Shown: piece by piece, positions 58,282 to 61,174 of the stretch
Layout: each line of letters begins with the position of its first letter
Position numbering within the stretch: the stretch's first letter is position 1
Origin: Casimicrobiaceae bacterium
GTDB taxonomy: Bacteria > Pseudomonadota > Gammaproteobacteria > Burkholderiales > Casimicrobiaceae
Length of the DNA stretch: 64,000 bases
Direction of reading: 5' to 3'
Assembly: GCA_025056355.1 (NCBI GenBank)
Contig: JANWWI010000006.1
Coordinates: 25,584-89,583, forward strand
Position numbers and translations under genes: made by a program
Notes under the pieces: generated by a model
Database searches by the model: none
What the model was told of the DNA's origin: nothing
Seen by the model: only the letters and a program-made list of their open reading frames with translations

Positions 58282-58767
58282 TCAGGGGTTAGCCAAGGCC
58301 GCGCGCGGCAACAGACGCACGAGGAGTGTGGCCTCGTAATCGTTCCAGGTCAGCGGCACAGCAAAGACGGGGCCGTCCCAAAGGACCCGCTCGTCGGGGC
58401 CGAGCCGCCGCACGCGTGGCGGAGCAATCGCCAGCGCATCGCCGTAGACGCGACGCGCATAGCCCGCGACCTGATTGGCGATCTCGCCGACCAAATCAAG
58501 GTGCACCACGTCGGAAAAATCGCGCTCGCCCATCCGCAGAAGCACATGACTCAAAAGCGCCCTGGGGGCCACGAATTCGATCGATCCCCCGTATGCACCG
58601 GAGACGGGAATCTCGCCGAGTAAATCCCCGGGTCGAAGCGGTTCTGGTTCCGCAACGCGGTAGGCCGTCCGTACCGTGGCGGCCAGCCCCGTCGTGGCGT
58701 GAAAAAACCGCGCCAGCGCATCGACGAAGACGCGCACATCGCGCTCGGTCAGTAGCGCTTCGCTCAT
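58282..58767 (-). CDS. CheX-like chemotaxis phosphatase family protein
   Basis: LLGEIPVSGAYGGSIEFVAPRALLSHVLLRMGERDFSDVVHLDLVGEIANQVAGYARRVYG; E...N motif typical of CheC/CheX family. Confidence 0.78.
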   Translation of the reverse strand: MSEALLTERDVRVFVDALARFFHATTGLAATVRTAYRVAEPEPLRPGDLLGEIPVSGAYGGSIEFVAPRALLSHVLLRMGERDFSDVVHLDLVGEIANQVAGYARRVYGDALAIAPPRVRRLGPDERVLWDGPVFAVPLTWNDYEATLLVRLLPRAALANP

Positions 58768-59135
58768 GCAAGCAACTCCCGCAGAGCGACAACGAGCTCC
58801 TCATCCGTGAAGGGCTTGAGCAAAAACCCGTGCGCGCCGCAGGCCACGGCCTTGAGTGCAGTGGCGCGATCGGAGAGCGCGGAAACCACGAGAATGCGCG
58901 CCTCCGGCAAGATGTCGCGCAGGCGTCGCAGGCAGTCGGCTCCTTCCATGCGCGGCATGGTCAGATCCATCGTGACCAGCGTCGGTCGCTTTTGCTGCGC
59001 CAGTTCAACGGCTTCGACGCCATCGCGCGCCATCGCCACGAGTTGAATGCCGAGGTCCGATTGACCGGTGATCAATCGGACGATGCGATTGCGAAACACC
59101 ATGGAGTCATCTACGACCATGAGCGAGTGTCTCAT
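58764..59135 (-). CDS. CheY-like single-domain response regulator
   Basis: SLMVVDDSMVFRNRIVRLI...TLVTMDLTMPRMEGADCLRRLRDILPEARILVVSALSDRATALKAVACGAHGFLLKPF. Confidence 0.93.
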   Translation of the reverse strand: MRHSLMVVDDSMVFRNRIVRLITGQSDLGIQLVAMARDGVEAVELAQQKRPTLVTMDLTMPRMEGADCLRRLRDILPEARILVVSALSDRATALKAVACGAHGFLLKPFTDEELVVALRELLA

Positions 59136-61174
59136 GCCGGTGCTCCCAACTCGATCGTAAAGCGCGTGAACTGCCCGCTGCATGAGGACACGCGAAGCCG
59201 CGCGCCGAGCTCTGCGAGCAGTCGGCGCACCCGCGCCAGGCCATCGCCCCGCCCGGCGACCTCGCTGACCGAAGCAGCGGTACTCACCCCCGGAGCAAAG
59301 ATCAACTCGGCAAGCGCGCGCTCATCTAGCGCAGCAACATCGAGCCCTCGCGCCTCGGCGACCGCGCGCAGCTTGCCGAGCGACAATCCGCCGCCGTCGT
59401 CGCTCACCTCGATGCCGGTGATACGTCCGTCGGCGGCTTGCTCGACGCGTACCCGTACCACGCCGCAGCGAGGCTTCCCGAGACGCAGGCGCTCTTCGGG
59501 GTGCTCGATGCCGTGCACGACAGCATTGCGCACGAGCTGCGGCAAGATCTCGCGCAGCGCGCGCTGCATGGCCTCAGAAAGACGATCGAGACTGCCTTCC
59601 ATTTCCAGGCGGGCTTGCTTGCCGAGACGCTCGGCCGTCTGTTCGACCACGCGAGTCAGCGCTTGGCCCAAGGTGCGCGTGAAATTGCGCTCGGGCGATG
59701 CGGTACCCGAGAGCGTGGCACGGATGCGCTGCATGAGCTCCGCGCCGTGCTGGAGGGAATCGCCGAGTCGCGACAAGGCAAGCGTCACACCGATCAAGTC
59801 CTCACCGGCAAGCTCGGCTTTTTGTCGCAACGCAACGAAGTTGTCTTCGACGCGATGCGCGACCTCTGCGATTCCCACAAGGCCCACGGCAGCAGCTTCT
59901 CCTTTGATGCCGTGAACCACCATGGCCACTTCCTCGAGCAGGCGCCGGCGCGCGTGCGGTTCGTCGGCTAGCCCTTTGAGCGCGTCGTTCAGGCGGGCGA
60001 GCTTGCGTTGCGCGCCGTCGATAAATTGTTCGACCCACTGCGGATCGCCCTCGAGCAGCGCAAGCAGCTCTTCGAGCGACCCTCCAAGGGGACGGCGCGT
60101 CTCAAGCGCTTCGGCCAGTCGTACCCGCTCGGTCACGTCGGTCACGGTCACCAGCAGCTCCTCGACTCGGTTCGCATCACGAATCTGCGTGAAGCGAAAG
60201 CTCAAATGACGGCCTTCCGAGGGTCGGTTCGGGTGACGCGCATACACCTCTTTGAGCGGGTCGAGCTGTTTGAGCAACGCGGGCTTGACCTTGGGATCAA
60301 AAAGTAGCCCGATGTAATCCTGGGCCTGCGCAGCGGTGGCGGGGTCAAGGTACCGATCAAGCCACTCGAAAAACGATGCGCCGGGCGGGCAGGGCTGCAT
60401 GAGCAGCGTTTCAGCGCTCGCCGAAGTGCGGGCGCCGAAGGTGCCGTCGCGGTAGATGAGCAGCAGCCCCTCGTTGACCGCCCCGAGGATGTCCTCGGTG
60501 GCTTTGCGCGCCCGCTCGGCTTCCGCATCGCTCTTGCGCAAGTGCCGCACGAAATGGAAAACGATGTAGAGGAAGTTCAAAAATGCGAGCAGGATCGCGC
60601 TGATCTGGATGATGCGCATCTGCTGGACCTTGCGCTCGGCGCCGTTTTTCACGGCCTGCGCAAGATCGTCGAGTCGGTTGGCCAGGCTGATGTTTCTCGC
60701 CACGGCCCGGTTGACCGCAAACTCCACCGTCTCCGGCGTCAGGCGATCCGTGGTCAGCAGCGGCTCAACCTCGCGCTCGATCGGTTCCCACTGGCGACGC
60801 ACGCGCTCGAGGATCGCGCGCATCGCGGTCACATCGATGCCAAAGTAGACGAAATCGCGGTCGTCAGCCAAGGAGGCCTCAAGCCGCGGTAGCTGCGCCG
60901 CAAAGCCGTTGCGTGCCTCGGTCAGTTGCGCGATGCTCGTCTGCGTCGGAAGTCCCTCTTTGACCTCGGTTTGCAGCGTCAGCACGCTTTTGGTGAGCTG
61001 CTGCGTCAGCATTCGCATTTCGCCGACCGCCGTGAGCCGTTCGGCATCGCGCTCGAGTTGCTTCGAAGCAAAAAAGTTGAACAGCAACAAACCGAGGTCG
61101 ATGATGATGAAGAGCAAGACCGCGATGACAAGGCGCCGATACTTTCCGAACATTGCCAGGGGAAACAAGCGCAA
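59132..61174 (-). CDS. membrane CheA-like histidine kinase (PilJ-like sensor, PAS, Hpt, HATPase)
   Basis: Two TM segments flanking EMRMLTQQLTKSVLTLQ (PilJ-like); HGIKGEAAAVGL (Hpt); ILPQLVRNAVVHGIEHPEERLRLGK, DDGGGLS, GRGDGLARVRRLL (CheA-type ATPase). Confidence 0.87.
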   Translation of the reverse strand: MRLFPLAMFGKYRRLVIAVLLFIIIDLGLLLFNFFASKQLERDAERLTAVGEMRMLTQQLTKSVLTLQTEVKEGLPTQTSIAQLTEARNGFAAQLPRLEASLADDRDFVYFGIDVTAMRAILERVRRQWEPIEREVEPLLTTDRLTPETVEFAVNRAVARNISLANRLDDLAQAVKNGAERKVQQMRIIQISAILLAFLNFLYIVFHFVRHLRKSDAEAERARKATEDILGAVNEGLLLIYRDGTFGARTSASAETLLMQPCPPGASFFEWLDRYLDPATAAQAQDYIGLLFDPKVKPALLKQLDPLKEVYARHPNRPSEGRHLSFRFTQIRDANRVEELLVTVTDVTERVRLAEALETRRPLGGSLEELLALLEGDPQWVEQFIDGAQRKLARLNDALKGLADEPHARRRLLEEVAMVVHGIKGEAAAVGLVGIAEVAHRVEDNFVALRQKAELAGEDLIGVTLALSRLGDSLQHGAELMQRIRATLSGTASPERNFTRTLGQALTRVVEQTAERLGKQARLEMEGSLDRLSEAMQRALREILPQLVRNAVVHGIEHPEERLRLGKPRCGVVRVRVEQAADGRITGIEVSDDGGGLSLGKLRAVAEARGLDVAALDERALAELIFAPGVSTAASVSEVAGRGDGLARVRRLLAELGARLRVSSCSGQFTRFTIELGAPA

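Follow-up and report, generated by a model that had tools for sequence, protein, structure and literature searches.

The nitrate sensor kinases NarX and NarQ each have a DNA-binding protein as their partner. The catalytic core of NarX is of the HisKA_3 type (PMC3510030), and a G-x-x-R motif is common to nitrate-sensing kinases (PMC8199190). The Pseudomonas aeruginosa chemoreceptor McpN binds nitrate via R61 in the N-box [IVL]-[ND]-x-A-G-x-Q-R-M-L-[ST]-Q; PilJ's own domains are without this box and do not bind nitrate (PMC6381276). A published survey of CheA proteins reports four core domains in every homologue that it covered (PMC10542144), and an ExxN motif provides the catalytic pair of CheX phosphatases (PMC3510030). 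The locus described here encodes a kinase whose Hpt and ATPase domains are CheA-like, without the P3 and P5 domains and with a periplasmic sensor of its own, together with a CheY and a predicted CheX. This three-gene circuit recurs across many proteobacteria, and no description of it was found in the open-access literature, where most subscription journals are missing.

The window, the whole 64-kb stretch of DNA analysed here, comes from a Casimicrobiaceae genome of 2.6 Mb (98% complete, 170 contigs). Three minus-strand open reading frames have the coordinates and strand given in the first-pass annotation, which had read them as kinase, CheY and CheX. The CheA-like membrane sensor kinase occupies 59132..61174 (680 aa), as defined by the ORF call, Pfam and an AlphaFold2 model. 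The single-domain CheY receiver (PF00072) lies at 58764..59135 (123 aa), and the predicted CheX phosphatase at 58282..58767 (161 aa), the latter identified by PF13690, alignment and a fold match to T. maritima CheX. The ATGA overlaps described in that annotation are present at both junctions, kinase/CheY at 59132..59135 and CheY/CheX at 58764..58767 on the minus strand, each a four-base overlap within ...CATGAG.... The choice of kinase start is uncertain among TTG 61174, TTG 61168 and ATG 61153, of which TTG 61168 has the best spacing from AGAGGAAG.

The kinase, with all features on the minus strand, is anchored by two transmembrane helices predicted by a Kyte-Doolittle scan (61061..61141, residues 12-38; 60539..60619, residues 186-212). 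Its periplasmic four-helix sensor is a PilJ-N domain of the NarX/McpN type (60749..61069, residues 36-142), supported by modelled helices and by PF13675 at 44.8 bits (cut-off 26.6). A cytoplasmic PAS-like domain (60116..60508, residues about 223-353) is suggested by modelled strands and by PAS_4, weakly above its cut-off (23.7 against 23.1 bits). The Hpt domain, resembling CheA P1, spans 59765..60037 (residues 380-470; PF01627, 38.0 bits, cut-off 24.6), and the HATPase domain, resembling CheA P4, spans 59141..59683 (residues 498-678; PF02518, 45.2 bits, cut-off 26.4), where the reading frame terminates. In the AlphaFold2 model (pLDDT 80, pTM 0.46) the Hpt consists of five helices and is joined to the HATPase by a short linker. 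A sequence search of solved structures returned CheA P4 as the best relative of the ATPase domain (about 1e-40) and CheA P1 at about 1e-7, and Foldseek supports the P4 match. Across a 14-row family alignment, the main ATPase box residues and Hpt residues H421, K424, H440 and E443 are invariant, with His421 (59912-59914) the predicted phospho-acceptor. Hpt and HATPase occur in 66/66 related kinases and PilJ-N in 58/66; the P3 dimerisation domain and the CheW-like P5 domain are reported in none of the 66. Since two core CheA domains are missing, the cassette kinase should not be filed as CheA.

The two small partners retain the residues expected of their families. CheY matches PF00072 at 87.6 bits (cut-off 30.2), and in the 14-row alignment D9, D10, D57, S85 and K107 are invariant, Asp57 (58965-58967, minus strand) being the predicted phospho-acceptor. 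For CheX, the first-pass annotation had made its assignment depend on a PF13690 match and an E-x-x-N motif. Both are found: the match scores 35.4 bits (cut-off 27), and the predicted catalytic residues E95 (58483-58485, minus strand) and N98 (58474-58476, minus strand) are invariant in the 14-row CheX alignment; the pair also aligns with the DAVGEVTN stretch of 3hm4. All five families named there for a Pfam search (PF13690, PF00072, PF02518, PF01627 and PF13675) thus score above cut-off. The AlphaFold2 model of CheX (pLDDT 87) is most similar to Thermotoga CheX 1xko (TM 0.79/0.80), at about 20% sequence identity to solved CheX structures.

The membrane CheA-like kinase, single-domain CheY and CheX, with their catalytic motifs intact, are inherited as one unit, in agreement with the earlier grouping of the three genes. 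Within the same GTDB family, CheX is carried by 14/64 genomes and the full-length kinase by the same 14, and the genes are adjacent in the order kinase, CheY, CheX in 13/13 relatives fetched. A wider scan of the CheX alignment against 84,980 species, each represented by a single genome, returned 175 relatives, and the loci of the best 80 were examined. These best 80 of 175 include Comamonadaceae, Rhodocyclales, Methylophilaceae, Neisseriaceae, Derxia, Cardiobacteriaceae (with Dichelobacter nodosus), Moraxellaceae and Oceanospirillaceae, among others. Neighbourhood conservation, which had been proposed as a check, is evident here: the gene order recurs in nearly all of the 80 loci with enough contig, in both Beta- and Gammaproteobacteria. 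The recurrence of this order, together with the occurrence of CheX and kinase in the same 14 of 64 genomes, indicates that the cassette is not a chance arrangement. Among 399 genomes sampled evenly from the order, 19 gave strong hits.

Several departures from this pattern were observed. Within genus g1, the cassette is carried by G000 and G020, its smallest genomes (2.5-2.6 Mb), and was not found in the other 15 members searched, whose genomes are all larger (3.2-4.7 Mb). In a Cardiobacteriaceae MAG (L097:7989-8468), CheX stands alone with no detectable adjacent CheY or kinase. The kinase ORF of Rappaport israeli (L093:6934-8456) is 230 aa long, without sensor and Hpt, beside CheY and CheX that remain; the short frame possibly reflects decay or a frameshift.

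The surroundings of the cassette are not those of a receptor array. No CheW or MCP gene lies within the 64-kb window, none having been noted nearby at first reading, and the one MCP and two CheW-type domains of the genome are all on a separate contig, C93, in a Pil-Chp cluster. Between 53018 and the end of the window, the genes that were named are pyr, yqgE, photolyase, 3-hydroxybutyrate dehydrogenase, 4-HPPD and an Lrp-type regulator. With no CheW, MCP or FliM around the cassette, the proposal of an output apart from receptor-array chemotaxis is favoured. The genome has a single Pil-Chp array, with its own receivers, and a single CheX, so the main role of the cassette CheX and CheY might be to serve that array, and not their own kinase, as a phosphate sink or reset. 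We consider this very improbable, as the three genes stay side by side over many families and in unrelated neighbourhoods.

The first-pass annotation had also suggested a link to pili. A related possibility is that the cassette forms an accessory branch of Pil-Chp, in which CheY would feed into the control of type IV pili, with a sensor responding to surface contact or pilin in the manner of PilJ. The receptor of the genome's one Pil-Chp cluster also bears PilJ-N, and the closest paralogue of the kinase ATPase domain in the genome is a ChpA-like protein of 1956 aa (44%). PilT is present in this genome, as it is in all 26 carriers tested; in the order sample it occurs in 19/19 carriers against 321/399 genomes (80%) overall, and FliM is found in 8/19 carriers (absent in 11) against 259/399 (65%) overall. 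These differences are unconvincing because the carriers are related to one another, and the PilT association is weak because 80% of sampled genomes of the order have PilT regardless. No pil gene is found among the recurrent flanking families of the cassette, and PilJ's own domains are, as described above, without the N-box. An accessory Pil-Chp branch is therefore rather unlikely in our view. Pili as the defining link are rejected, given how common PilT is and that no pil neighbour recurs; the recurrent neighbours are instead nitrate or phosphate genes, and PF13675 is common to NarX, NarQ and McpN.

The flagellar switch protein FliM was likewise rejected as a general target, being present in a smaller share of carriers than of the background and not found in the window's own genome. 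The cassette CheY has no effector domain and this genome has no detected FliM, which leaves a pilus or metabolic target of CheY possible; on weak evidence, type IV pili or surface behaviour would be the least improbable candidate.

The sensor domain offers clues to the input. NarX, NarQ and McpN, which sense nitrate, belong to the same PF13675 family, and the sensor alignment and published motif definitions place the P-box/N-box equivalent of the window's kinase, LTAVGEMRMLTQ, at 61001..61036 on the minus strand (residues 47-58). This box retains G51-x-x-R54 together with M55, L56, T57 and Q58, and departs from the N-box consensus at three defined positions, T48, V50 and M53. The G-x-x-R motif contacts nitrate in NarX/McpN (PMC8199190, PMC6381276), and its G51 and R54 are each found in 57/66 cassette kinases. 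In the alignment, 35/66 kinases are N-box-like (GRQRMLSQR and close forms) and 22/66, the window's among them, have a variant box (GExRMxxQQ and similar). When the sensor is left out of tree building, the 22 variant-box kinases still form one fully supported clade.

The remaining nine of the 66 have no recognisable box, and one of these nine has a Tll0287-like haem sensor; input is thus not uniform across the family. In that kinase (L058:6525-8717, the same gene as L101:5350-7542), the place of PilJ-N is taken by a Tll0287-like domain bearing a CMGCH c-haem motif, and CheY, CheX and the kinase's catalytic core are all retained. This apparent sensor swap may give a haem or redox input. Cassettes from Dichelobacter and Neisseriaceae (L094, L110 and L146) wholly lack the G-x-x-R box, so their input must differ.

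Neighbouring genes in relatives provide further indications. At 16/80 loci the fetched flanks contain nitrate genes (NapA, NrtA/B/CD, NirB, NapC/G, NasA-like, NarK-like); NapA, NrtB, NrtCD, NirB and NapG exceed curated cut-offs, and the matches to NapC, NarK and the NasA-like enzyme fall below them. In Methylotenera the cassette is co-directional with and between nrtA-nrtB-nrtD (plus an unassigned gene) and nirB-narK-...-nasA-like. A nitrate cluster of this Methylotenera type that holds the cassette also encodes a protein phosphatase 2C fused to a Ser/Thr kinase (L108:12435-14126). Nitrate context accompanies 12/35 N-box kinases and 0/22 variant-box kinases (Fisher p 0.002, without correction for relatedness), and requires four changes on the tree.

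By comparison, 7/22 variant-box cassettes, the window's clade, are flanked by pst-pho genes (PstS, PstC/A, PhoU); no pst gene was seen at the other 15/22. PstS, PhoU, PhoB and PhoR were verified beside cassettes of this clade, PhoB/PhoR in one verified locus, and in Azonexus the PstS frame starts about 24 bases past CheX on the same strand. An N-box kinase, L113, likewise adjoins a pst-like cluster. As the variant box has a single origin, its pst association could reflect shared ancestry.

These observations bear on what the window's kinase may detect. It could be a nitrate sensor, like its relatives inside nap and nas clusters, and the retained G51-x-x-R54 and the four residues after it would fit such a role. 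Against this, NapA/NasA and NarG were not found in the 98% complete genome, three motif positions differ and none of the 22 variant-box kinases has a nitrate gene nearby. Nitrate is thus disfavoured as the window's input, given the off-consensus box and the missing reductases, and we regard this reading as improbable. We infer that the protein would instead sense phosphate, or phosphate status via PstS. With no pst gene in the window or the remainder of its contig, phosphate status is a best guess judged from the clade and not from the cassette's own neighbourhood.

Taken together, the best explanation is that the cassette is a CheA-like phosphorelay that senses an anion, operates without an array and is reset by CheX, to which we assign a probability of roughly 0.55. 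The NarX/McpN-type four-helix domain of the kinase would sense a small inorganic anion on the periplasmic side, anion sensing by the family being itself a prediction. The signal would pass through the PAS-like domain and govern autophosphorylation of Hpt His421 by the kinase's own CheA-type ATPase. Phosphoryl groups would then probably flow from the Hpt to the partner CheY, at Asp57, from which CheX would take them off again using E95/N98, a step proposed to make the signal decay fast. Chemoreceptor array, CheW and adaptation enzymes would be dispensable in such a relay. The CheY has no output domain, and its output would therefore have to act by protein contact. A wider and more tentative proposal, which we hold as somewhat less than an even chance, is that the cassettes represent widespread, undescribed array-free relays in which an oxyanion receptor is fused to a CheA-type core, with CheY, reset by CheX and a non-flagellar target, responding to nitrate in one branch and to phosphate in the window's branch.

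Such a relay can be compared with several known systems. The cassette CheX resembles the CheX phosphatases of Thermotoga, Borrelia, Desulfovibrio, Shewanella and Vibrio in its PF13690 match, CheX fold and ExxN pair, but is distant in sequence from the solved structures and has an array-free kinase as its operon partner. Like NarX and NarQ, the kinase has a periplasmic four-helix sensor with a P-box in which G-x-x-R is retained, whereas its core is CheA-like and its partner is a CheY. It shares a PilJ-type ligand domain with McpN, whose N-box is matched or nearly matched by the 35 N-box-like kinases, but McpN is a chemoreceptor whose kinase is another protein, while the cassette combines sensor and kinase in a single polypeptide and the window's box is a variant. 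The nitrate and phosphate ligand predictions can be compared between two branches of one family, in a three-protein system simple enough for in vitro rebuilding. As in CheA, including ChpA of type IV pili, there is an Hpt with the invariant His/Lys/His/Glu set, a CheA-type P4 and a single-domain CheY partner; unlike CheA, the kinase is without P3 and P5 and has two transmembrane helices, a PilJ-N sensor and a PAS-like domain. If the proposed relay is correct, CheA-type catalysis can work without receptor arrays, CheW, P3 or P5, which raises the question of the role of CheY in cells without a flagellar switch.
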